In this document: positions 9,511 through 49,334 of the stretch, piece after piece
How positions within the stretch are numbered: the stretch's first letter is position 1
Layout: the number at the start of each line of letters is the position of its first letter
Source: Nitrospira sp. ND1
GTDB lineage: Bacteria > Nitrospirota > Nitrospiria > Nitrospirales > Nitrospiraceae
Direction: 5' to 3'
DNA: 64,000 nt
NCBI RefSeq assembly: GCF_900170025.1
Contig: NZ_FWEX01000006.1
Coordinates: forward strand, 2,285,625 to 2,349,624
Notes under the pieces: generated by a model
The model's input: only the letters and a program-made list of their open reading frames with translations
Database searches by the model: none
Told to the model about the DNA's origin: nothing
Position numbers and translations under genes: made by a program

Positions 9511-10212
9511 TTATCGTGTTGCCGGGGTAGCCTGGGGGGCTTGGAACGAGTGGAGGAGGCGTTCAGCCTGTGCCTGGCTGGTGAGGGCCATTTTGATCAC
9601 GATGCCGCAGAGAGTGAACACCACCGCATTCAGGAGGAAGAACACGGCGGCGAACGAGCCGGTCGTAAAGGCCCAGGCTTCAGAGTCTGCCCGGTGGCGC
9701 TCCAGGACCCTGGTTTCCTCCTTGCGGATTTGCGCGCTGATATCCTGGATGGTATCCATTGTCCGGTTCTGTTGATTCACCGCCACGGCCGACTTGGCAT
9801 AGAGGAGCCCCTTGCTGCGACGTGTCACGATGGCCTGGTCCATTTCCTCCGATCGCTGTTCGACCTGTGTGGCAAGATAGGCCACCCGGTCCTGCTGGAT
9901 CGAATTGTCCCTCGTCAGCCCTCCGATCCGCCGGATCTGGTCCTCAAGCGTGACGACTGCCTCGCGATAGGGTGCAAGGTACTCGTCCGAGCCGGTAATG
10001 ATGTATCCGCGTTGGCTGGTTTCAGCCCCCGCCACGGCACTCATCATCCGTTCCAACTCAAGCAGCACCTGCTCACTTTTCGTGGCCCAATTGTTGGAAG
10101 TCTTGAAGTGCAGCAGGCTCAGGAAACTCGCTGCGACGATAGATTCAACCGCTATAAATCCCACGGCAAGGGCGATGATAAGGCCTTTGCCGGCAAAAAG
10201 ACGATGGAGCAT
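9511..10212 (-). CDS. CHASE3-domain membrane sensor-like protein
   Basis: Start chosen at 10212, where GAGGAGGG lies six bases upstream; the frame is open further upstream without support. Residues 8-30 form a first membrane helix. A periplasmic helical domain follows with AETSQRGYIITGSDEYLAPY, the hallmark of CHASE3. A second helix lies near residues 190-215, and only about 20 cytoplasmic residues remain. It has no kinase, HAMP or methyl-accepting domain, so it is a stand-alone sensor or a truncated receptor. It is the only minus-strand gene in the first 57 kb and is divergent from the sqr-like gene. Confidence 0.75.
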   Translation of the reverse strand: MLHRLFAGKGLIIALAVGFIAVESIVAASFLSLLHFKTSNNWATKSEQVLLELERMMSAVAGAETSQRGYIITGSDEYLAPYREAVVTLEDQIRRIGGLTRDNSIQQDRVAYLATQVEQRSEEMDQAIVTRRSKGLLYAKSAVAVNQQNRTMDTIQDISAQIRKEETRVLERHRADSEAWAFTTGSFAAVFFLLNAVVFTLCGIVIKMALTSQAQAERLLHSFQAPQATPATR

Positions 10213-10567
10213 GGGGGACCCTCCTCGATAATACGTCCATAGTAGGAGTACCGGCCCGTCAGCGGCTATGTCAACCCGACAAATCCCCCTAGGTATCGTA
10301 AGATCTGTCGTAGTGTTCGTGCGAGACACAGTGGAATGAGGGATCACTACCCCGAGCCCAGTCTTGGAGCGGGGTATAAAATTTCCCCGCAGCCGGTTTA
10401 TCTCTACTCCGGCTGAATCCAAATGACCTGTGATGGCTCTTAACAAGAGGAGTGGGAACGGACCGTGCATGGTCCCAGGTTTGGAGCGGGATGGGTGACT
10501 CGCGGGAGGGACGGGATCGCGCAGCGAGGCAAGGACGGTAGGAATCTACTTTGAGGGGAGGTGGATC
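10213..10567. other. Divergent intergenic region
   Basis: This is 355 bases between the CHASE3 gene (minus) and the SQR-like gene (plus). It must hold both promoters. I see no convincing -35/-10 pair by eye. The SQR-like gene has GGGGAGG ahead of its ATG. Confidence 0.4.
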
Positions 10568-11815
10568 ATGGCAAGGGTCGTCATCATCGGTGCGTCCATC
10601 GGCGGGTTGCCGGCAGCCTATGAAGCCCGGGAATTGCTGGCGAAGAAACACAAAGTGACGGTGATCTCCAACGTGGAGTCGTTCCATTTCGTCCCCTCCA
10701 ATCCCTGGGTGGCGGTCGGATGGCGAACGAGGAAAGACATCAGTTTTGCACTGGGCCCTGTGCTGGAGAAAAAAGGCGTGGAATACATTCATGCCATGGC
10801 GGAGCGGATTGAGCCTGAACAGAATCGTGTCATCACCTCGAAGGGCGAAGTCCCCTATGACTACCTGATTATCGCCACCGGGCCGAAGCTGAACTTCGGC
10901 GCGGTGCCCGGACTCGGGCCAAGCGGGTATACGCAATCGGTCTGCAATGTGGACCATGCCGAACAGGCCTGGGGCACCTACCAAGCGTTCCTGAAAGACC
11001 CCGGTCCCATCGTGGTAGGGGCGGCGCAAGGCGCCTCCTGTTTCGGACCGGCCTACGAAATGGCGTTCATTCTGGATGCCGATCTCCGCAAGAAGAAACT
11101 CCGGAAGAAGGTGCCGATCTATTTTGTGACGCCGGAACCCTATATCGGACATATGGGGCTGGCGGGTGTGGGGGCCTCCCGACGCCTGATGGAAGATGAG
11201 TTCGCCGACCATTCGATGAAGCCCATTTGTAATACCGCCATTAAGGAAGTGCAGCCGGGCAAACTATTGCTCGACGGAGGACAGGAAGTCCCGTTCCGGT
11301 ATTCGATGATCATTCCGCCGTTCGCCGGCGTGGATGCGGTGGCAGGGACGCCGGGGCTCTGCAATCCCAAAGGGTTTGTGAATATCGATGCCTATCAAGC
11401 CAATCCCAAGTATAAGAATATCTATTCGGTCGGCGTCTGTGTGGCCATTCCGCCGGTGGAACAGACTCCGATTCCGACCGGTGCGCCTAAGACCGGGTAC
11501 ATGATCGAGTCGATGGTGTCGGCGGCGGTACACAACATCAAGGCCGATATCGAGGATGACCCGAAGCGCGAGACCGCGACCTGGAATGCGATCTGTCTCG
11601 CCGACATGGGGGACACCGGTGTGGCCTTTGTGGCGTTGCCGCAAATGGCACCACGGAATGTCACCTGGGCGAAGAAGGGCAAGTGGGTGCACCTTGCCAA
11701 AATTGCGCTGGAGAAGTATTTCTTGCGCAAGATGAAAAAGGGCGTCAGCGAGCCCTACTATGAGAAGGTGATTTTGAAGGCCCTGGGGATTGCCAAGTTG
11801 GAAGGCCCGGCCTAA
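10568..11815 (+). CDS. sqr: Sulfide:quinone oxidoreductase-like FAD flavoprotein
   Basis: GGGGAGGTGGATC precedes ATG 10568; 415 residues. The N-terminal dinucleotide fold reads VVIIGASIGGLPAAYEA. The pattern LIIATGPKLNF near residue 100, the cysteines at 126, 158 (QGASCFGPAYE) and 343 (CLADMGDTG), and a second Gly-rich region match the SQR family, where two conserved cysteines carry the polysulfide and reduce FAD. The enzyme would oxidise sulfide and pass electrons to quinone at the inner membrane; C-terminal amphipathic helices (LEKYFLRKMKKG) could give membrane contact. The TauE/SafE gene and the downstream sulfur genes fit. Exact SQR type is not determined. Confidence 0.8.
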   Translation: MARVVIIGASIGGLPAAYEARELLAKKHKVTVISNVESFHFVPSNPWVAVGWRTRKDISFALGPVLEKKGVEYIHAMAERIEPEQNRVITSKGEVPYDYLIIATGPKLNFGAVPGLGPSGYTQSVCNVDHAEQAWGTYQAFLKDPGPIVVGAAQGASCFGPAYEMAFILDADLRKKKLRKKVPIYFVTPEPYIGHMGLAGVGASRRLMEDEFADHSMKPICNTAIKEVQPGKLLLDGGQEVPFRYSMIIPPFAGVDAVAGTPGLCNPKGFVNIDAYQANPKYKNIYSVGVCVAIPPVEQTPIPTGAPKTGYMIESMVSAAVHNIKADIEDDPKRETATWNAICLADMGDTGVAFVALPQMAPRNVTWAKKGKWVHLAKIALEKYFLRKMKKGVSEPYYEKVILKALGIAKLEGPA

Positions 11816-12057
11816 CCCGGACTATTCATGAATGCCTGCTCCGTCGTCCGATTCTCTCGCCCGGCGGGGCTGTTCTCGTTCGGCCGCCCGGCCGCCTCAC
11901 CGGCTCGGCGGCGCGCACAGACGTGGCGCTCTTTAGTCATCGCGCCGTGTGCCCTCGACGGACTGTCAGTACGCCTGCGTCGGCCTCGCTCGCGAGAAGC
12001 CCCGGCGGGCTTCGGTCTCGAACGCCTCGCGACGACATTCATGAATAATCCGGGCTA
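11813..12057. repeat. MITE-like element A2 (245 bp, TA-flanked)
   Basis: It begins with the TAA stop codon of the SQR-like gene. The terminal inverted repeats (11813-11834 and 12036-12057) match at 20 of 22 positions; the core is ATTCATGAATG. The interior is shared at both ends with A3 (GCCTGCTCCGTCGTCCG and AACGCCTCGCGACG). No coding capacity. Confidence 0.85.
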
Positions 12058-12107
12058 AACGATATGGAGACGGGGCATCGCGTAGCGAGGATCGACAAGG
12101 AACCGGC

Positions 12108-35828: not shown

Positions 35829-36263
35829 ATGGAAGTTCGCAGCAAGGTCTATACGTATCGTACGGCAGTGAAATGGACGGAACAGAAAAAAGGAACGATT
35901 ACCTGCGAAGGAAAACCGGATATCCAGGTGGCGACACCTCCGGAGTTCAAAGGACATGAGGGGATTTGGTCGCCGGAGGACTTGTATGTGGCGTCGGCCA
36001 ATATCTGCCTGATGACGACATTTTTGGCGGTCGCCGAACGGGCCGGATTGACCTTCACGTCGTACCACTGTGAGGCGGAAGGACGGTTGGAACTCGTAGA
36101 GGGAAAGTTTCAGGTCACCGTGATTACGTTGCGTCCGCAGATTGCGCTTCAGTCGGGAAGCGATGCGGCGAAAGCCAAGGAGCTCATCGAGAAGGCGGAA
36201 GCCAACTGCCTGATCTCGAATTCGATGAAAACGCGTATCGCCCTAGAGCCCACCATCTCCTGA
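35829..36263 (+). CDS. OsmC-family peroxiredoxin-like protein
   Basis: CCGGAGGAATCG precedes ATG 35829; 144 residues with the OsmC/Ohr fold. The reactive cysteines are Cys60 (ASANIC) and Cys127 (EANCLIS). Such proteins reduce organic hydroperoxides in the cytoplasm using lipoyl or other thiols. The gene is 46 bases after rnk. A second, divergent OsmC-like protein occurs at 43552. Confidence 0.85.
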   Translation: MEVRSKVYTYRTAVKWTEQKKGTITCEGKPDIQVATPPEFKGHEGIWSPEDLYVASANICLMTTFLAVAERAGLTFTSYHCEAEGRLELVEGKFQVTVITLRPQIALQSGSDAAKAKELIEKAEANCLISNSMKTRIALEPTIS

Positions 36264-40274: not shown

Positions 40275-40310
40275 GGTGTGTCTAATGCGGGCAGAGAACG
40301 GAAAGGAGCG

Positions 40311-40994
40311 ATGATGACCGACGTCTGGCGTAGTGGCGGCCTTCTTGTGGCGCTCGTAGTTGGGATGACGACGGTCTTTGCGGTTGCGGTCACTCGCGTT
40401 GCGGCAAAGGGCGAGCAAGCGGGCGAACAATTTGTGAGGAACACCTGTACGGCCTGCCATCGAATCGAAGGTCCGGTCGCAGCCCGCAAAACCAAGAAGG
40501 CACCGGACCTGATTTGGGCCGGTAATAAGTATCAGCCAGCGTGGCTCGTCAACTGGCTCCAGAATCCCGATTTCAAGCACTATCCCGTCGGCTACGATTT
40601 TCGCCCGGATCGAAAGAAGCGACACCTTGCCTTGCCCCTCGATCAGGCGAAAGCGGCGGCGGCGTTTCTGGCTACGCGGAAGGATCCTCGTATCAAGGAA
40701 GGTGTGATGAAGGCAGGCACGGCGGAGCAAATGGCGAGGGGACGCAAGCTCTATCAGGAGCATGGATGCCAGAATTGTCATTACACGCCGGCCGGTACGC
40801 CGAAGGGGTATGTCGGAGGAACGTCCAGTACCTCGTTCATCAAATTGAGCGAGCGGTTAAACGCGGATTGGGTCTACCGTTTTAACCTGAACCCCAACGA
40901 TTTCGAGCCGGACAGCGGGGCCTATATCCCTAAGCCGCCGCTGCCGGATGAGGACATTTACGCCATTACCGCATACATGATGACATTCAAATAG
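40311..40994 (+). CDS. Dihaem cytochrome c
   Basis: GAAAGGAGCG precedes ATG 40311 (or 40314). Signal peptide, then CTACHRIEG and CQNCH sites. 227 residues. It contains KAPDLIWAGNKYQPAWLVNWL, a segment shared with the N-terminal half of the tetrahaem protein at 45836. It is likely an electron acceptor for the bc complex next to it. Confidence 0.85.
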   Translation: MMTDVWRSGGLLVALVVGMTTVFAVAVTRVAAKGEQAGEQFVRNTCTACHRIEGPVAARKTKKAPDLIWAGNKYQPAWLVNWLQNPDFKHYPVGYDFRPDRKKRHLALPLDQAKAAAAFLATRKDPRIKEGVMKAGTAEQMARGRKLYQEHGCQNCHYTPAGTPKGYVGGTSSTSFIKLSERLNADWVYRFNLNPNDFEPDSGAYIPKPPLPDEDIYAITAYMMTFK

Positions 40995-41015: not shown

Positions 41016-41387
41016 ATGAACGATGCAGGTCGCCGGGCGACAGTCGCGGGCGGAGGACTCCTGTTGATGGTAGCGAACATTGTCATGGGCGGAGCCGCGG
41101 GAGGGGCTGAGGGAAAGTCGAATCCCGAGGCCGGGAAGAAGATCTATCTGGAGAGTTGTCAGAACTGCCATGGACCGACGGGCAAAGGCGACAGCGACAT
41201 GGCGGCCTACCTGTCGCCGCCGCCCGCCAATCTTACCGCCAAGGGGACCCAGTCAAAGACCGATGCGCAACTGCGGAAGGTGATTCTGGAGGGGCGGCCC
41301 GGTACGGCCATGACCGGGTATGAGGGAGCGTTTGAAGAACCTCAATTGTCGGATTTGATCGCCTACATCCGCTCGCTCAAGTCATGA
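41016..41387 (+). CDS. Monohaem cytochrome c
   Basis: GAGAGGAGGGAACG precedes ATG 41016. Signal peptide of ~30 residues; the haem site is CQNCHGPTGKGD and the distal Met is in GTAMTGYEG. A class I c-type cytochrome of ~93 mature residues, similar in sequence to that at 36489. It belongs to the same transcription unit as the dihaem protein (22-base spacing). Confidence 0.85.
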   Translation: MNDAGRRATVAGGGLLLMVANIVMGGAAGGAEGKSNPEAGKKIYLESCQNCHGPTGKGDSDMAAYLSPPPANLTAKGTQSKTDAQLRKVILEGRPGTAMTGYEGAFEEPQLSDLIAYIRSLKS

Positions 41388-42094: not shown

Positions 42095-42606
42095 CTCGTC
42101 TCAGGATGGATCAAGCTGTTCGACGTGATCCGAGCGCTGCGAAGGGGGCTACGGCTTACGGCATAGGCTGCGTAGGGCCGTGCCTATGTTGTGGCCGGAA
42201 CCGGAATCCCCGTAGCGGCGTAGGATTATCGAGAACACCAAAGACATGATGCTCGGAGGCGTGAATGATGAGTGCAAGGCACCGACGTTATATCGGCCGG
42301 TGATCACGTTAGTCCCTTCGTCCATCCTCGAAGCCTCCCGGGCCGGCGCGAGGAAACAGGGCAGATAACGCCTCAGAACGATCAAATCAACATTCTGAAT
42401 CCTTTTCCACAAACCTGTCCCTAATCACCACATTCAAGACGGTGGTGTATGAGTTCGCTGTAGCACGATGCCGCAGGCGGCGGAGGGGGACTGTGGCTTT
42501 TGTCGTCAAGTATGCAGGCATGCATTCCCCTGAGGGCCTGCCAAAAGCTAATTCTCTTAGGCGAGCTCGTGTCGACGTGGTATGCAGTTTGCGAGACCCT
42601 CTACGT
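42095..42606. other. Intergenic region, no supported gene
   Basis: This is 512 bases. It contains a GGCTACGGCTTACGGCATAGGC stretch and its near inverse GCCGTGCCTATG around 42148-42190, and a stretch GGCGTGAATGATGAG (42260) that could start a 35-codon frame without support. An open frame continues into the following gene from 42442 but has no ribosome site or recognisable domain. I find no gene. Confidence 0.45.
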
Positions 42607-43452
42607 ATGAGACACATATTGTTCAGTGCCCTAGTGATCGTCGCGTTCATGACAGGTTGCGTCGATTCGAAGGAAGCACGCAGCGGCGCACAGTCTGCCA
42701 TGAGTCAAGCCGAGCCGGACAGGCTCGATGCCCTCTTCAGCCATCCCTCCCCCGATTCCATCCCCGGCGGGCAGCGCGGGGAGCAGATCCGGTTGGGTTA
42801 TGAGCTCGTCGTTCATACGCAGGAATTCGCCGCACCCTACGTAGGGAATCGGCTCACTTGCGCCAATTGTCATTTGGACGCAGGGCTCGATCCCAATTCG
42901 GCCTCTTATGTCGGGCTCTCGCGGGCCTATCCGGAATATCGCGCGCGAACCGGGCGTGTCGTGACATTGGCCGACCGTATCAATGAATGTTTTGAACGCA
43001 GCTTGAACGGCAAGCCGATTCCGTCGGACAGCCACAAGCTCCGGGCCATCGTGGACTACATCGAATGGTTGTCGAAGGATGTTCCGGCAGGAAGCCGGAT
43101 GGCCTGGCGTGGCATCCCACGGATTCAAGCGCCCAAGCCGCCGGATGTGGCGAATGGTGCCAAGGTCTTCACGTCCCGTTGCGCGTTTTGCCACGGAGCG
43201 GACGGGCAGGGCACGATGGCAGCTCCCGCTGTGTGGGGACCTCAGTCTTACAACATCGGCGCGGAGATGGCGCGCATTCCGGTAGCCGCTTCCTTCATTA
43301 AATCGAACATGCCTCGCACCAGAGGATGGGCCCTATCGGATCAGGATGCCTATGACGTAGCGGCGTATATCAACTCCCAACCACGCCCGGATTTTCACGA
43401 CAAGGGCAATGACTGGCCGAAGGGAGAGAAACCGGCGGATGCACCCTATTGA
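42607..43452 (+). CDS. tsdA: Thiosulfate dehydrogenase-like dihaem cytochrome (TsdA-type)
   Basis: ATG 42607 begins a lipoprotein signal (VIVAFMTGC, Cys near residue 17). Two haem sites: CANCHLDAGLDP and CAFCHGADGQG. TsdA has an unusual His/Cys-ligated haem; the equivalent conserved segment reads NECFERSLNGK, and the Cys is present. PYRARTGRV-like and IVDYIEWLSK segments also match. It would oxidise thiosulfate to tetrathionate, or run in reverse. The assignment is by motif; other dihaem cytochromes share the fold. Confidence 0.7.
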   Translation: MRHILFSALVIVAFMTGCVDSKEARSGAQSAMSQAEPDRLDALFSHPSPDSIPGGQRGEQIRLGYELVVHTQEFAAPYVGNRLTCANCHLDAGLDPNSASYVGLSRAYPEYRARTGRVVTLADRINECFERSLNGKPIPSDSHKLRAIVDYIEWLSKDVPAGSRMAWRGIPRIQAPKPPDVANGAKVFTSRCAFCHGADGQGTMAAPAVWGPQSYNIGAEMARIPVAASFIKSNMPRTRGWALSDQDAYDVAAYINSQPRPDFHDKGNDWPKGEKPADAPY

Positions 43453-43462
43453 ACGCGTGCAA

Positions 43463-43535
43463 CGCATCTCGTGAGGCGTATCTCATGACACATCCCTCCT
43501 GGGAATGAACAACGAGATGCGAAGTACGAGATGCG
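43463..43535. repeat. Short palindromic repeat family E, copy 1
   Basis: GCATCTCGTGAGGCGTATCTC is followed by the inverse-type arm ACGAGATGCGAAGTACGAG. This matches the copies at 47260 and 52577. It sits between the TsdA-like gene and the OsmC gene. Confidence 0.7.
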
Positions 43536-43551
43536 AGCGGAGGAGGACGAA

Positions 43552-43989
43552 ATGAAACTCAGCGTGGCGTATCAGGGGGGAGCGCGGTACGACATCCTGA
43601 GCGATCGGCACCGGATCGTGACGGATCAGCCGGTTGAAGACGGAGGGGCCGACGCCGGTATGAGTCCCGTGGAACTGTTTGTCGGTTCGGTGGCGAGCTG
43701 CGTGGGGTACTTTGTCGGCCAGTTCTGCGCGCGACACGATATCTCACGCGAAGGCCTAAAGGTGGACGCTGAATGGACGATAGCTGAAGCGCCGCATCGA
43801 GTCGGGCAGATCCAACTTGCGATTCGCCTTCCCCATCGAGTGACACCCGAGCTGAGAGAGCGGCTGCTGAAGGTGGCGCACGGGTGCACGGTCCATCAAT
43901 CGATCGTCGTGCCTGCCGCTATCGCGATCGAGCTGAATCCGCACGGCCATCCGGCGACGGCATCTGATCTTATGGAGGAAAAGTCATGA
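43552..43989 (+). CDS. OsmC-family protein
   Basis: GGAGGACGAA precedes ATG 43552; 145 residues with the OsmC fold. The reactive cysteines are Cys50 (GSVASC) and Cys112 (AHGCTVHQS). Overlaps the sulfite oxidase start by the ATGA rule. Some OsmC-like proteins of this branch (YhfA-type) occur near sulfur metabolism genes, so a role with persulfides is possible (inference). Confidence 0.8.
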   Translation: MKLSVAYQGGARYDILSDRHRIVTDQPVEDGGADAGMSPVELFVGSVASCVGYFVGQFCARHDISREGLKVDAEWTIAEAPHRVGQIQLAIRLPHRVTPELRERLLKVAHGCTVHQSIVVPAAIAIELNPHGHPATASDLMEEKS

Positions 43990-45167
43990 CGGTGTCCCGA
44001 CGGGAATGGTTGCGAACGGTCCTGCAAGGAATCGGCATCGGTATGGTGGTTGGGCCCGTGGGCACCGCGATCGCCACCGCGCAGGGGAGTGAGGCGGGGC
44101 ATGGAACCGGGCCGTTGACCGTACGAGTGACCAGGCCGTTCGACGCAGAAACACCGGTCCGGGAATTTGCCTCCTGGCTCACACCCAATGAGCGATTTTT
44201 CACGCGCAGTCACTTCGGCCCTCCTTCAGCCGAGACGGTACAGCCCGATGTCTGGCGACTGACGGTCAAAGGGCTGGTCAAAGAGGAGCTGACGCTCAAC
44301 CTCAAAGACTTACAACAACTCGAGGCCGTCACCCTGACCGCCGTTCTGCAATGCAGCGGAAACGGACGCGCGCACCATCGTCCCAAAGTGCCCGGTGTGC
44401 AGTGGGAACGCGGAGCGGTCGGCAATGCGCAATGGACCGGCGTGCGGCTTCGCGATGTGTTGCAGCGAGCCGGAGTGAAACCGCAGGGAGTCCACGTGCA
44501 ATTGCAGGGGGCGGACCGGCCGGCGCTGGCGACCGTGCCGCTGTTCACGCGAAGTATCCCCCTCGCAAAGGCTCTCCATCCCGATACCCTCCTGGCCTAT
44601 GAAATGAACGGCCGTCCGCTGCCCCTGCTGCATGGCGCGCCGCTGCGGGTGATTACTCCCGGCTGGATGGCGGAGTCCTGCATGAAGTGGCTGACCGAGA
44701 TTACGGTTCGAGCGGATGAAACGCCCGGCTACTACATGCAGCAGGCCTATCGCATTCCGGAAACGGCCGTTCGCCTGTCTTCGGGATTGCCGGGAAGCGC
44801 GATGGTTCCGGTCGAGCAGATGCCCGTCAAGTCGCTTATCGCCGCTCCGGCGGAGGGAGACACGGTACGGATCGGGCCGGTCACGATTCAAGGTGTCGCC
44901 TGGGCCGGCGAGGCGCCGGTGGCGAAGGTTGAAGTGTCCTGCGACGACGGAAAGACCTGGGAGCAGGCCCGGTTATTGGGAGAGGGGCAGCCCTACGCCT
45001 GGCGGCAATGGCAGTCTGTGTGGAATGCCCGCACGCCAGGGCCTATTGCGATTCTCTGCCGCGCCACCGATGCGCAGGGGGAGCAGCAACCGGCGACGAG
45101 CTCTTGGAATCCCGGAGGATTTCTATGGAACGGATGGGATCGCCTGTCCGTCACGGTGGCGGCATGA
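43986..45167 (+). CDS. sorA: Sulfite oxidase, molybdenum subunit (SorA-type)
   Basis: ATG overlaps the OsmC stop. Tat-type N-terminus (SRREWLRTVLQG). The oxidoreductase molybdopterin domain has the molybdenum-ligating Cys123 in LQCSGNGR, then LPLLHGAPLRVITPGWMAESCMKWLTEI. The C-terminal dimerisation domain has VEVSCDDGKTWEQA. It would oxidise sulfite to sulfate in the periplasm, giving electrons to the cytochrome encoded next. Its 393-residue length fits the SorA group. Confidence 0.85.
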   Translation: MTVSRREWLRTVLQGIGIGMVVGPVGTAIATAQGSEAGHGTGPLTVRVTRPFDAETPVREFASWLTPNERFFTRSHFGPPSAETVQPDVWRLTVKGLVKEELTLNLKDLQQLEAVTLTAVLQCSGNGRAHHRPKVPGVQWERGAVGNAQWTGVRLRDVLQRAGVKPQGVHVQLQGADRPALATVPLFTRSIPLAKALHPDTLLAYEMNGRPLPLLHGAPLRVITPGWMAESCMKWLTEITVRADETPGYYMQQAYRIPETAVRLSSGLPGSAMVPVEQMPVKSLIAAPAEGDTVRIGPVTIQGVAWAGEAPVAKVEVSCDDGKTWEQARLLGEGQPYAWRQWQSVWNARTPGPIAILCRATDAQGEQQPATSSWNPGGFLWNGWDRLSVTVAA

Positions 45168-45799
45168 CCCAGAGCACGGCGAAAAAGACCTCCGGTTTCG
45201 TGCTCGCTGCATTACTCTGTACTCTGCTTGGCTGGGTGGTGATCACGGCGGCTCAGGAAGATGACCGTGGAACGATTCAGCCGGCCCAGGCTCGTCAAGC
45301 ACTGACATTGATTCATGCCCGTTGCGCCGTCTGCCACACGACCGACCTGATCGTGCAGCAACGGTTGCCGGCCGACCGATGGACAGTGACGGTTGAGAAG
45401 ATGATGCATTGGGGCGCGGATCTGTCCAAGGACGAGGCGGCGATGGTCTTGCAATTCGTGACGGCGCGGTATCATTCCGGTGCGCCGGACCATCTGCCGT
45501 CGATTGAAGAAGAGTTGGCCATGATCGGGCCTGCGGTAGGCCCGCGTCAGGGGTCTGAGGGGCCGGTGTCCGGTGTGGCATCGAGAGGCGCGGGACTCTA
45601 TGCGCACAATTGCCAGGCCTGCCATGGTGAAGGAGCGTCCGGTGGGGCCGGACCTAAACTCGCGCGCAATACGATTCTGAAAAATGAAGGGGCTTTTTGG
45701 GAGACGGTGCTCCATGGGCGGGGGCCGATGCCGTCCTGGGGCGCAGTGCTGAGTCATCAGGAGATCGCGGATATTCATGCCTGGTTGGCGACACGCTGA
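45164..45799 (+). CDS. Dihaem cytochrome c, SorB-like partner of sulfite oxidase
   Basis: ATGA overlap with sorA. Signal peptide (LLGWVVITAA). The haem motifs are CAVCHTTDLIVQQRL and CQACHGEGASGGAGP, and a distal Met lies in GPMPSWG. The position after sorA matches the SorAB arrangement, though SorB usually has one haem; here the first half is an additional module. It would carry electrons from sulfite oxidase onward. Confidence 0.8.
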   Translation: MTQSTAKKTSGFVLAALLCTLLGWVVITAAQEDDRGTIQPAQARQALTLIHARCAVCHTTDLIVQQRLPADRWTVTVEKMMHWGADLSKDEAAMVLQFVTARYHSGAPDHLPSIEEELAMIGPAVGPRQGSEGPVSGVASRGAGLYAHNCQACHGEGASGGAGPKLARNTILKNEGAFWETVLHGRGPMPSWGAVLSHQEIADIHAWLATR

Positions 45800-45835: not shown

Positions 45836-47251
45836 ATGGGTGGAAGACGGACGGTGGTAGTCGGATGCGCGTTGGTCATATTGGTGGGGTTGTTCTCATT
45901 CCCCCGCTTGCTGTTAGGCAGTGATCAGACTCGCGTCAAGGAGATGATTCAGAACAATTGCGCCGGTTGTCACCGCTTGGAAGGGAAAGCGGATTCGCGT
46001 TTCAACTTGAAGGCGCCCGACCTGATTTGGGCCGGAAGCAAATATCAGCGCTCATGGTTGCTTCGTTACCTGACGGGGAAAGAGGCGCCGCTGTATCCAA
46101 AGGGATATCGCTGGGATTTGTCTGAGGGGCCGACGCGGCATCCGGTGGTCAGCGAAGACGAGGCCCTGGGTATTGCCGAGTATTTCGAACAACACAATAA
46201 AGACCCGCGGGTGAAAGTCGGGGCCTTCGATCTCTCGAAGGTCAGCAAGTTCGATGCGACGTTCGGCGGCATGGCCTACAAGGCTCACGCCTGTCTCGGC
46301 TGTCATTTGGTCGAGGAGAACGGCAAGCTGATCGGCGGGCCGCAGAGCGCGTCGCTGGTAGCGGCCGGTCAACGGTACGACAAGGATTGGCTCTTCCGGT
46401 TCGGACAGAATCCGCAAGATTTCACGGTTCACAACGGGGAGTTCCTGGCGGACGCGACGGAACCGCAACTCCGTGCCGTCATCGGGTACCTGATGGTGCA
46501 GGGCGTCAAGGACTTCAAGTATTACGAACCCTGGACGGCGCCGGAGTTCGGGATGGCGAGTGCCGATCGCGGGAAGGTCCTCTATAAAGAATATTGCGCT
46601 CAGTGCCATGGGTTCACCGGAAAGGGCGACGGTCCGGCTGCGTCCGGATTGGAACCGAAGCCGGCGATCCATGCGAACATCCCGTTCGACAAGGTGCCGA
46701 CCGACTATCTTTACAATGTGATCAATCACGGCGGGGCGGCGATGGGAAAATCGCCGAGCATGCCTTATTGGGGTCTGACCATCGGTCAACAGGGTGTCGC
46801 GGATGTCATGGCCTATTTGAAAGTGACCTTCAAGGGCCAAGCGGAAGTCGCACAGGCAGCCGCAGGGTCCGGTGAAGGTCCGAGCGGGGTCTGCCCGCAG
46901 CCTCGGAAAACGGCGAAGGCGCCGGCAGAGTTTCTATCCAAGGCCAATCCGTTGCCGCAGTCGGATGCGACCATCAAGGCGGGGAAAACCCTGTTTCTCC
47001 AGACGGCCCAGCCCGTGGCCTGCGCAATGTGCCATGGCGACAAAGGCAACGGGCAAGGCTTCATGGGCGCGGCCTTGATCCCGCCTCCCCGAAACTTTAC
47101 GTGCGGCTCAATGATGAAAGATCTTCCGGACGGGCAACTGTTCTGGATCATCAAGAACGGCTCGGCTGGAACCGGCATGATGTCGTTCGCCGGATTGCCG
47201 GATGAGCAGGTCTGGCAGTTGATTGCCTATGTGAGAAGTTTGGCGAAGTAA
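45836..47251 (+). CDS. Tetrahaem cytochrome c (modular fusion)
   Basis: 471 residues with one N-terminal anchor. Four haem sites: CAGCHRLEGK, CLGCHLVEE, CAQCHGFTGKGD and CAMCHGDKGNGQ. Residues ~1-225 correspond to the dihaem protein at 40311 (KAPDLIWAGSKYQRSWLLRYL). The third domain is a class I cytochrome, and the fourth resembles the C-terminal half of the cytochrome at 48804 (FWIIKNGSAGTGMMSFAGLP). It appears built by fusing pieces still present as separate genes nearby. Periplasmic electron wire or terminal donor. Confidence 0.85.
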   Translation: MGGRRTVVVGCALVILVGLFSFPRLLLGSDQTRVKEMIQNNCAGCHRLEGKADSRFNLKAPDLIWAGSKYQRSWLLRYLTGKEAPLYPKGYRWDLSEGPTRHPVVSEDEALGIAEYFEQHNKDPRVKVGAFDLSKVSKFDATFGGMAYKAHACLGCHLVEENGKLIGGPQSASLVAAGQRYDKDWLFRFGQNPQDFTVHNGEFLADATEPQLRAVIGYLMVQGVKDFKYYEPWTAPEFGMASADRGKVLYKEYCAQCHGFTGKGDGPAASGLEPKPAIHANIPFDKVPTDYLYNVINHGGAAMGKSPSMPYWGLTIGQQGVADVMAYLKVTFKGQAEVAQAAAGSGEGPSGVCPQPRKTAKAPAEFLSKANPLPQSDATIKAGKTLFLQTAQPVACAMCHGDKGNGQGFMGAALIPPPRNFTCGSMMKDLPDGQLFWIIKNGSAGTGMMSFAGLPDEQVWQLIAYVRSLAK

Positions 47252-47320: not shown

Positions 47321-47338
47321 AAGCGAAGGAGGTTGTTA

Positions 47339-47698
47339 GTGGCGACGTTTATCATTTCCGGCAGTCGGGGCACAGACGATCCGACCATGGCGACTCTTCC
47401 GTTCATGGCGGCCAAGACCGCCAAGGAGCAGGGTCATGATGTGGTGTTGTGGTTGTGGAACGAGGCGGTGACGTCAGCGCGAAAGGGCTCGGCGGATCAT
47501 GTCGTCGGCGTGAATTTGACGCCGCTGAAAGACCTGTTGGCGGCCGTCCAGGCCGCCAACATTCCCATCTGGGTCTGCGGAGCCTGTGCCGTCGCCAGGC
47601 AGATCGGCCAGGCTGATCTCATAGCCGGAGCCGTGATCAAAGGCATGCCGGACTACATCAAGGCTGTGGCTGAGCGCGACCGGACCGTGGCGTTCTAA
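47339..47698 (+). CDS. DsrE/DsrF-family sulfur-relay-like protein
   Basis: AAGGAGG ends seven bases before GTG 47339. 119 residues with the DsrE fold; the cysteines Cys83 and Cys86-type CGACA motif lie in WVCGACAVARQIG. DsrE-like proteins carry persulfide sulfur. The location within a cluster with sulfite oxidase and a TsdA-like protein supports a sulfur role, but DsrE family members can have other jobs. Confidence 0.75.
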   Translation: MATFIISGSRGTDDPTMATLPFMAAKTAKEQGHDVVLWLWNEAVTSARKGSADHVVGVNLTPLKDLLAAVQAANIPIWVCGACAVARQIGQADLIAGAVIKGMPDYIKAVAERDRTVAF

Positions 47699-47733: not shown

Positions 47734-48804
47734 ATGGCATCCGACGAACAAGCGGGCAGGAAAGCTAAAGGCAAAAAGGGGCGTATGGCTGCAGGAGCCG
47801 CGGTCTCGATTGCGGAACACAACGGACGACTTGAGACGGATGACCTGGAGATTATTCCGACGGCCGTGCCGAGGGAGGGAGACGGGTACCAAGCTCCTGA
47901 TCAAGCCACCGGGGGAGTGACGGCCGGATTAACCGGATTAATCGGTGAAGTGGGCCGAACCCTGACCGAAGACGATCTGCGGCGCGTGAATACGCGGCGC
48001 GGGCTGCTGCAGTTGATCAAGAGCAAGAATATCGATCTGGATGACGTGCGCAAGACGCTGCTGTATGAACAGGAATTGCAGCAGCTGCAGGTCGAGCTGG
48101 TCCGTCTTCAACGCTGGGTACAAGCCGATGGGCAGCGTATTGCGATTCTTGTCGAAGGCCGGGATGCGGCCGGGAAGGGCGGAACGATCCGCCGGTTTAC
48201 CGAGCATTTGAATCCGCGTGCCATGCGGGTCGTCGCGTTACCGAAGCCGACGGACGATGAGCGGGGCCAGTGGTATTTCCAGCGGTATATCCGGCAACTG
48301 CCCAACAAGGGTGAGATCGTGTTTTTCGATCGCAGTTGGTACAACCGCGCCGTCGTCGAACCGGTGATGGGGTTTTGCAGCAAGAAGGAGCATCAACGAT
48401 TCTTGCAGCAGGTGACGGAATTCGAGCACATGCTCTACGAGGACGGCGTGACGATCATCAAGTTCTGGTTCTCGATTTCCAAAGAAGAACAGGCCAGTCG
48501 ATTCGAAGCGCGCCGGCAGAATCCCCTCAAGCAGTGGAAGCTCAGTCCTGTCGATGAAAAGGCGCAGGAGCTGTGGGATTCGTACACACGATACAAAGAA
48601 GAAATGTTCAGCAAAACCCATACGACTTTCAGCCCCTGGATCATCGTCAAAGCGAACGACAAGCAGGCCGCGCGATTGGAAAGTTTGCGCCACGTGCTCA
48701 ACCTTCTGGCGTACAGGGGCAAGGAAGAGGCGCAGATCCGCCTGACTCCCGACCCCAACGTCATCACTCGGTTCCATCGTAAGATGGTGGAATTGGATTT
48801 CTGA
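47734..48804 (+). CDS. ppk2: Polyphosphate kinase 2 (PPK2)
   Basis: ATG 47734 with AAGGGGACGGG upstream. 356 residues with an N-terminal extension of ~110 residues. Walker A is GRDAAGKGG (~141-149), the lid region PKPTDDERGQWYFQRY, and Walker B-type FFDRSWYNRAVVEPVMGF (~197). It phosphorylates nucleoside diphosphates using polyphosphate or the reverse. The next gene overlaps by one base (TGATG). Confidence 0.9.
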   Translation: MASDEQAGRKAKGKKGRMAAGAAVSIAEHNGRLETDDLEIIPTAVPREGDGYQAPDQATGGVTAGLTGLIGEVGRTLTEDDLRRVNTRRGLLQLIKSKNIDLDDVRKTLLYEQELQQLQVELVRLQRWVQADGQRIAILVEGRDAAGKGGTIRRFTEHLNPRAMRVVALPKPTDDERGQWYFQRYIRQLPNKGEIVFFDRSWYNRAVVEPVMGFCSKKEHQRFLQQVTEFEHMLYEDGVTIIKFWFSISKEEQASRFEARRQNPLKQWKLSPVDEKAQELWDSYTRYKEEMFSKTHTTFSPWIIVKANDKQAARLESLRHVLNLLAYRGKEEAQIRLTPDPNVITRFHRKMVELDF

Positions 48805-49334
48805 TGCAGAGGCGGCTGAGTATCACATGGGCGATCATGGCGGCGGCCGTGGTGACGGGTGTCCCTGCAGTCGCCCAACATATGCAGCCGTCCCGCGTCC
48901 CGATCGAGCACCTCGAGGAGGCGCGTGCGCTCAAGAGTCCATTGCCTGATTCGCCTGATGTGGTCGAAAGGGGCAAGGTCCTCTATCACGGGAAGGGGAC
49001 GTGCGCCAACTGTCATGGGCCGGAGGGAGCGGGCGATGGGCCGGTGGCGTCGCAGCTGAATCCATCCCCCCGTAATTTTCAGCGCCCTGGATTTTGGCGC
49101 CATCGCACGGAGGGCGAAATTTTCTGGGTGATTAAGAACGGGTCGCCCGGAACCAGCATGGTCGGATTTGCGGGACAGCTGACGGACGAAGAAATGTGGG
49201 CCGTGATCCAGTATGAACGCACCTTCGCTGAGAGCCATGGTCACGGGAGAGGAATGGGGCCTGCTGGAGGGATGGGGCATAAGGGAAGGTATGGGCGGCA
49301 TGGGGCATCGAGGAGCCGGAAACGGGGGCTGTGA
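48804..49334 (+). CDS. Monohaem cytochrome c with His/Gly-rich tail
   Basis: TGATG overlap with ppk2. Signal peptide ending AVA-QHM. CANCHGPEGAGDGP haem motif and distal Met in TSMVGFAG. A C-terminal tail rich in His, Gly and Arg (ESHGHGRGMGPAGGMGHKG) follows the cytochrome fold; such tails can bind metals. Similar to the fourth domain of the tetrahaem protein. Confidence 0.8.
   Translation: MQRRLSITWAIMAAAVVTGVPAVAQHMQPSRVPIEHLEEARALKSPLPDSPDVVERGKVLYHGKGTCANCHGPEGAGDGPVASQLNPSPRNFQRPGFWRHRTEGEIFWVIKNGSPGTSMVGFAGQLTDEEMWAVIQYERTFAESHGHGRGMGPAGGMGHKGRYGRHGASRSRKRGL

Follow-up and report, generated by a model that had tools for sequence, protein, structure and literature searches.

A four-haem cytochrome of Nitrospira with a three-haem cassette that appears to have been exchanged repeatedly across species

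Several c-type cytochromes are encoded close together in the stretch of 64,000 nucleotides from Nitrospira sp. ND1 that was analysed here (the whole stretch is called the window), and one of them carries four haem motifs in a single chain. How was this protein put together, and what could it do in an organism whose genome (4.45 Mb) also contains free versions of its modules? Multihaem cytochromes are thought to grow by added haem modules, and an earlier note on this DNA had described the gene as assembled from modules present as separate genes nearby. The tetrahaem cytochrome itself is confirmed at 45836-47251, with 471 amino acids and four CXXCH motifs beginning at residues 42, 153, 254 and 396 of the product P0001. 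P0001 scores above the curated Pfam cut-offs of both Cytochrom_C (PF00034, 108.1 bits for a cut-off of 21.3) and Cytochrome_CBB3 (PF13442, 104.3 bits for a cut-off of 27). With its CXXCH motifs lying within these domains, it is a class I c-type cytochrome; its four-domain arrangement is covered by none of the Pfam and NCBIfam models listed. The best-matching named locus listed is that of Candidatus Nitrospira defluvii (95% identical). The domain limits used below are residues 28-225 for domains 1 and 2 (the dihaem half), about 232-335 for domain 3 and about 363-471 for domain 4. The features of the gene are as follows.

45836..47251, + strand: four-haem c-type cytochrome gene (P0001), open frame of 471 amino acids with four CXXCH
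45836..45955, + strand: residues 1-40, hydrophobic N-terminus up to haem 1, read by eye as a signal peptide or anchor
45956..46810, + strand: three-haem cassette, apparently exchangeable, about residues 41-325 (domains 1-3), edges approximate, from label changes and MaxChi
45959..45973, + strand: haem 1 motif CAGCH, residues 42-46, in 102 of 102 aligned rows
46139-46141, + strand: His102, invariant (102/102 rows), likely second ligand of haem 1
46292..46306, + strand: haem 2 motif CLGCH, residues 153-157, in 102/102 rows
46430-46432, + strand: His199, invariant (102/102 rows), likely second ligand of haem 2
46595..46609, + strand: haem 3 motif CAQCH, residues 254-258, domain 3, in 102/102 rows
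46760-46762, + strand: Met309, invariant (102/102 rows), likely ligand of haem 3
46922..47248, + strand: domain 4, monohaem and cytochrome-579-like (72.5 bits on NCBIfam cytochrome579 for a cut-off of 280; best stretch 364-469)
47021-47035, + strand: haem 4 motif CAMCH (CXXCH) of domain 4; Met448 invariant in 102/102 rows

Because His102, His199, Met309 and Met448 are invariant and no Met of the dihaem half reaches 90% conservation in the 102 rows, the alignment suggests two bis-His haems (1 and 2) and two His-Met haems (3 and 4), with a path that would run towards domain 4. Cys353 and Cys423 are also invariant in these rows and possibly form a disulfide. The predicted structure is of moderate quality (pLDDT 72.6, pTM 0.67), the loops with His199 and Met309 being below 50. 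The best solved relative, both in the sequence profile search (E 4.2e-19) and in the fold search (E 1.3e-6), is the Kuenenia cytochrome 6h5l_B of the HAO-like complex Kustc0457/Kustc0458, but the profile match covers domain 4 only and the fold match has a TM-score of 0.19 by query length. The alignment with the thiosulfate dehydrogenase TsdBA (5lo9_B) extends over the length but is poor (E 1e-3, TM 0.18), and none of the structure and profile matches listed is convincing for the full four-domain arrangement. Domain 4 resembles cytochrome 579 (NF033864), the single-haem cytochrome of Leptospirillum that serves iron oxidation. The domain 4 score of P0001 (72.5 bits) and that of the free protein at 48804 (112 bits) are both far below the whole-protein cut-off of 280 bits.

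Three free cytochrome genes of the window bear on the origin of these modules.

40311..40994, + strand (the open frame may begin at 40278): free dihaem cytochrome related to the first half (E 5.4e-33, 33% identity to residues 9-221)
41016..41387, + strand: free monohaem cytochrome directly after the dihaem gene (49.2 bits to domain 4, 31.8 to domain 3)
48804..49334, + strand: free cytochrome-579-like monohaem gene (NCBIfam cytochrome579 112 bits, cut-off 280)

The strings that the earlier note had found in common are present, both between the first half and the 40311 protein (KAPDLIWAGSKYQRSWL vs KAPDLIWAGNKYQPAWL) and between the last domain and the 48804 protein (FWIIKNGSAGTGMMSFAG vs FWVIKNGSPGTSMVGFAG). 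For the first half the likeness goes beyond chance: in a whole-genome search 40311 is found with residues 9-221 at E 5.4e-33 (33%), and the runner-up among places matching the first half alone reaches E 0.023. In the local phmmer set, 40311 scores 116.5 bits and the other cytochromes of the genome 15.3 bits or less. The 40311 protein, colinear over both haem domains, is thus the same module as the first half and its nearest free relative in the genome, so free and fused versions do coexist as had been claimed; it has Asp and not His at the column of His199. The match of the last domain to 48804 is real (E 2.1e-21), but it is not special, the free gene C6:2889161 matching equally well (E 9.7e-22) and C6:2183945 more weakly (E 5.7e-16). 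The same order is seen in the local set (C6:2889161 80.7 bits, 48804 79.6, C6:2183945 64.8, 41016 49.2). In the domain tree, which has few columns and long branches and leaves out some haem domains of the genome (L156, L157 and the first haems of 42532 and 45131), 48804 joins C6:2889161 and C6:2183945 (94/82). The outcome that the earlier note had named as a refutation, modules placed far from each other with better matches elsewhere, does not hold for the first half and holds by half for the last domain. We have ruled out 48804 as the specific origin of domain 4, since C6:2889161 is its equal and 48804 groups with other free genes. The gene 41016 has likewise been ruled out as the source of domain 3, since it is closer to domain 4 (49.2 vs 31.8 bits).

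The claim that the gene was assembled from its neighbours is not supported. In a dihaem tree of 49 rows (the stop-bearing copy L174 being excluded from the free set), the first halves of all 28 fused proteins fall into a single clade (100/99), separate from the 21 free dihaem proteins; the fused forms and the Nitrospira free dihaems lie on one side of a 100/99 branch. Among 61 genomes (that of the window and 60 relatives), 37 carry the full-length fused gene, and two more carry a trihaem version (G033) or a partial one (G010). The fused gene occurs in two families of the order and, besides these, in Nitrotoga. Across the phylum, the dihaem half is matched at E 1e-10 in 92 of 295 genomes, of which 16 lie outside the order with weak matches (E 5e-11 to 1.5e-19). 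The 40311-like gene is missing in four of five close loci where it was searched directly (L038 of N. defluvii, L040, L041 and L042); in the fifth (L039), only its last 70 residues are found (residues 158-227 of 227). From the unity of the fused clade and the patchiness of the 40311-like gene, the fusion looks like one old event, with 40311 as an unfused cousin. Among the sampled sequences the fused form seems to have arisen once, its presence in two families being due to descent or to transfer. The searches beyond the phylum covered one contig scan of genomes, six Nitrotoga-type genomes and plasmids.

The first three haems look like a fused gene pair, because domain 3 is closest to monohaem proteins whose genes come directly after free dihaem genes. 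Such a pair of a free dihaem and a small monohaem gene is seen in five of five Nitrotoga-type regions (L188-L192) and also in L160 and L161, and four of these monohaem proteins are the best matches of domain 3 (62.7 and 53.7 bits for two from other Nitrospirota, 51.8 and 44.7 bits for two from Nitrotoga); the cytochromes of the window's own genome that were compared score 39.6 bits or less. After the Nitrospira-type free dihaems a small monohaem gene comes next in 9 of 12 cases (not in L171, L177 and L186). As judged from these sequences, the most likely source of the fusion is an adjacent dihaem and monohaem gene pair, with domain 4 gained later. The locus L162 encodes a three-haem protein of 419 amino acids that matches the dihaem half at 59.4 bits, domain 3 at 32.0 and domain 4 at 19.0. 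In the Nitrotoga-type regions (L188:6360-11076 and L189-L192), a gene that resembles a copper protein by eye, the free dihaem gene and the monohaem gene form a conserved group. Four of these five stretches hold a domain-4-like monohaem gene nearby as well, the one of L188 scoring 49.0 bits. This gene group holds, in unfused form, counterparts to the pieces that make up the four-haem protein.

Domain 4 has also been lost. In some Nitrospiraceae, 7 of the 36 rows compared (33 different sequences) are three-haem proteins ending right after domain 3, and this absence needs two changes on the tree. The trihaem protein ends in FKGPK in six loci (five genomes) and in L170. A DsrE gene comes next after the trihaem gene in five of the six loci; L146 shows just a broken DsrE-like start. 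A different kind of change is seen at L182:4187-4729, where an internal deletion joins residues 1-155 to 444-471, a decay unlike the trihaem genes.

The comparison of identities domain by domain reveals two kinds of first half in the group of the window, the dihaem halves being about 50% identical. The first half of five second-form rows is 75-79% identical to that of L169, the four-haem protein of another genome, and 48-56% identical to that of the window, while their domain 4 is 84-93% identical to that of the window and 66-69% to that of L169. The DNA follows the same course: identity to the window in the five second-form loci is 74-91% over 45836-45985, 51-65% over 46061-46585, 75-79% over 46586-46735 and 84-96% at the end of the gene, and three first-form loci show 77-93% over 46061-46585. 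The trees of the N-half and of the C-half disagree in line with the two forms. On DNA trees of 22 loci (L054 omitted), the form label changes once for residues 40-250 and seven times for residues 345-471, much as a random label would, at least four of these changes being forced. The tree built from four flanking proteins (23 rows, hand-picked among the loci with upstream SorA-type genes and not all such loci) needs seven changes of the label (shuffled mean 7.3), with at least six of them forced by well-supported branches. The N-terminus does not track the form either (residues 1-39, seven changes, shuffled mean 7.2).

A scan along the gene delimits the exchanged tract. The label changes once in six windows of the scan covering residues 40-320, as in 280-310 and 295-325; it changes twice in 36-60, four times in 28-45 and five to seven times in the other windows tried. 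The form is thus linked over about residues 40 to 325 and unlinked on both sides. MaxChi places the upstream break at residues 39-51 in all five exchanged rows and the downstream break at 240-270 in four and at 335 in one (L097 gave 303 without range limits); none of 2000 permutations was as extreme in any of the five rows, and four unexchanged controls are almost uniform. Of 103 rows, 78 were kept after removal of short rows and of those more than 93% identical. The p-values of the topology tests are descriptive, since the second-form group was defined after the domain identities had been seen. Holding together the 13 rows of the window's group is rejected on the N-half tree (p-AU 6.8e-45). 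On the C-half tree, a clade of all ten second-form rows is rejected moderately (p-AU 0.016), and the test does not reject a grouping of four exchanged rows with L169 (p-AU 0.317), this piece still containing part of the exchanged tract. The clear separation of histories comes from domain 4 alone and not from the C-half. Taken from these mosaics, the three-haem cassette appears to have been exchanged repeatedly across species, the rest of the gene and its neighbours being kept. The three-haem unit is hence delimited in three ways: by its occurrence as separate genes, by what remains after loss of domain 4 and by the exchanged tract.

Could the mosaics arise with no exchange at all, through a first half that evolves faster in some lineages or through errors of assembly? 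In many rows domain 1 shows rather low conservation compared with other parts, and many loci derive from metagenome bins, but faster change alone does not make the second form 75-79% identical to L169 and 48-56% to the window. An assembly error is unlikely because the second form is present in G001 and G007, which are single-contig genomes, and mosaics are also found on contigs over 500 kb (L070, L097). We regard this explanation as highly improbable, and exchange of the cassette is retained in what follows.

The surroundings of the gene suggest with which enzymes it may work. The neighbours on the same strand are as follows.

42442..43452, + strand: dihaem cytochrome with a SoxA/TsdA domain (Pfam SoxA-TsdA_cyt-c 50.1 bits)
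43531..43989, + strand: OsmC-family protein (Pfam OsmC 43.3 bits)
43986..45167, + strand: SorA-like molybdenum sulfite dehydrogenase catalytic subunit (Oxidored_molyb 197.2 bits, cut-off 24; NCBIfam SorA 321.9, cut-off 600)
45131..45799, + strand: SorB-like c-type cytochrome with two CXXCH (SorB 38 bits, cut-off 93; Cytochrome_CBB3 67.3)
47333..47698, + strand: DsrE-family protein, the most persistent neighbour (Pfam DsrE 71.8 bits)

A second, different OsmC-family gene is present at 35829-36263 (65.1 bits) and flanks, together with that at 43531-43989, a cytochrome-rich stretch. Neighbours were counted after dropping 26 of 80 loci with less than 3.5 kb on a side; the loci are related by descent, so the counts are not independent. 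Within 6 kb in the 47 Nitrospirota loci, DsrE, OsmC and cytochrome-579-like genes are each found in 35, SoxA/TsdA-like genes in 34, and SorA (at least 50% identity) and SorB-like genes in 19 each; nine loci have none of OsmC, SorA, SorB-like and DsrE. In the seven Nitrotoga-group loci, DsrE is the only one of the neighbours counted (7/7, with 0/7 for OsmC, SoxA/TsdA-like and SorA), which brings DsrE to 42 of 54 loci overall. In L065, L069 and L076 (about 10001-12080), a stand-alone four-haem gene precedes a gene for a similar small exported protein that looks like a cupredoxin by eye, and none of the eight window neighbours searched is found within 6 kb; the bins ACE_NIT7 and ACE_NIT10 hold a clustered four-haem copy as well (L068, L079).

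With SorA at this identity near 19 of the 47 Nitrospirota loci and near none of the seven loci of the Nitrotoga group, it is not an obligate partner. Counted over the 63 different genes that have 3 kb of sequence to either side, after removal of 33 whose flank is short and of 7 repeats, a SorA-type gene is present within 5 kb in 24 cases, 21 times upstream and three times downstream. When loci with a short side are included, the gene is found downstream on the same strand at 103-732 bases in L099/L030, L036/L177, L114, L117, L169, L171 and L173. The downstream genes of L117 and L171 are just under the NCBIfam SorA cut-off (598.8 and 595.2 vs 600 bits), but that of L099 (340.8) and that of the window (321.9) are far from it: 43986 belongs to the superfamily Oxidored_molyb and not, by this cut-off, to SorA (NF052245). 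As to SorB (NF052246), the cytochrome at 45131, only weakly similar (38 vs 93 bits), lies with the SorA-like gene directly upstream of the four-haem gene; P0001 itself is not listed, and the model of 80 positions does not cover a four-haem protein. PMC12342949 describes SorAB as largely restricted to lineage IV of the Nitrospirales, and PMC6050957 attributes a sulfite:cytochrome c oxidoreductase to Nitrotoga fabula.

Betaproteobacterial records contain the gene in nine loci with 65-71% identity, seven from Nitrotoga, one from Gallionellales and one from Nitrosomonadales, and the rows used fall among the Nitrospira sequences in both half-trees. The DsrE proteins of the Nitrotoga group are 81-84% identical to that of the window in all seven loci with enough flank. 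By these likenesses, the four-haem gene and the DsrE gene have probably travelled together to the Nitrotoga group. Carriage of the gene on plasmids was considered and rejected, since none of the 103 matching plasmid records covers 80% of the protein. Two Nitrospira-like loci (L045 and L089; 89% and 72%, similar gene order) bear titles of uncultured Nitrosospira and are possibly mislabelled.

The recurrence of SorA, DsrE, OsmC and TsdA/SoxA-like neighbours suggests a relay for the oxidation of sulfur compounds. P0001 would be an exported, periplasmic electron relay of two units, the three-haem cassette (the 40311-related dihaem module and the monohaem domain 3) and the C-terminal cytochrome-579-like carrier domain. 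The cassette would dock electron donors, the electrons entering on the probably bis-His haems 1 and 2 and passing to the probably His-Met haems, 3 and then 4. Domain 4, or a free carrier of the 48804 type where domain 4 has been lost, would deliver them towards a terminal oxidase. The likely donors would be periplasmic sulfur-oxidising enzymes, with the sulfite dehydrogenase SorA/SorB as first candidate. Homologous recombination, with one crossover close to haem 1 and the other around haem 3 or beyond it, would be the simplest way for the two forms to replace each other. Such a relay, fused once, with a repeatedly exchanged cassette and sulfur-oxidising donors, is our preferred reading, towards which we lean slightly.

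The main rival is a general relay of the respiratory chain, from a bc-type complex or nitrite oxidoreductase to an oxidase, beside which the sulfur-type genes would be neighbours by history. The pair 40311/41016 directly follows Rieske (38361) and cytochrome b (38949) genes, and at L164:1258-3231 an eight-CXXCH cytochrome, a distant relative of the dihaem half (64.9 bits), comes directly after cytochrome b-like genes. PMC3578206 gives the cytochrome c subunits of bc complexes as mono-, di- and sometimes tetrahaem, a likeness in haem number; however, the four-haem gene itself stands at a distance of about 5.5 kb, with no cytochrome b gene beside it. The four-haem gene is found in 30 of 41 genomes with NxrA vs 9 of 20 without (of these 39, one trihaem and one partial). 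TIGR03479 is too blunt as a marker of nitrite oxidation, with matches in 38 of the 61 genomes and none above cut-off. On the other side, 11 of the 41 NxrA-bearing genomes, the single-contig G041 among them, are without the gene, so nitrite oxidation does not need it and a role as obligate electron acceptor of nitrite oxidoreductase is ruled out. Moreover, SorA-type genes adjoin the gene in two arrangements though the window's genome has just four Oxidored_molyb matches. A general respiratory relay is a serious competitor, which we nonetheless consider the less probable account, and the periplasmic relay for the oxidation of sulfur compounds such as sulfite is kept as the preferred one.

Why two forms should persist is a matter of more tentative proposals. 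No neighbour gene tracks the cassette form among the 11 with enough rows, the SorB-like gene included; label changes are near the shuffled mean (at the lowest, 102 of 500 shuffles were as low, with only 3-6 second-form rows for three genes, and one further gene had too few rows). SorB or another tested neighbour as the co-varying partner is thereby ruled out. Nitrospira may keep a pair of three-haem donor adaptors that can stand in for each other, their dihaem halves being about 50% identical, swapped as cassettes across species and held by long-lived balancing selection on two forms, which would switch the donor or another partner and leave the carrier end unchanged; we offer this as a plausible idea that we would not yet bet on. 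Balancing selection unrelated to redox partners, for example through a phage or a toxin recognising an exposed cytochrome, would fit the label being as scattered as random on the flank tree, an old two-form pattern common to several species, and the lack of any tested local gene that tracks the form. Yet nothing indicates that the protein is exposed at the surface, and both forms retain His and Met at the ligand positions, so that the redox function looks conserved; we find this alternative unlikely. A literature search below full-text level returned no description of the four-haem protein or of its cassette exchange.

A single old fusion, after which the three-haem block still acts as an independent and exchangeable unit, makes a better account of this locus than assembly from nearby genes. 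One locus shows the block as a gene pair, as a three-haem protein, as part of a four-haem protein and as a cassette that appears to move between species. The gene and its DsrE neighbour in common link Nitrospira and Nitrotoga, which are unrelated nitrite oxidisers. The two forms make a testable claim on partner specificity in the respiration of nitrifiers: if the donor-adaptor proposal is true, the electron donor or another binding partner could be switched without change to the carrier end of the chain.
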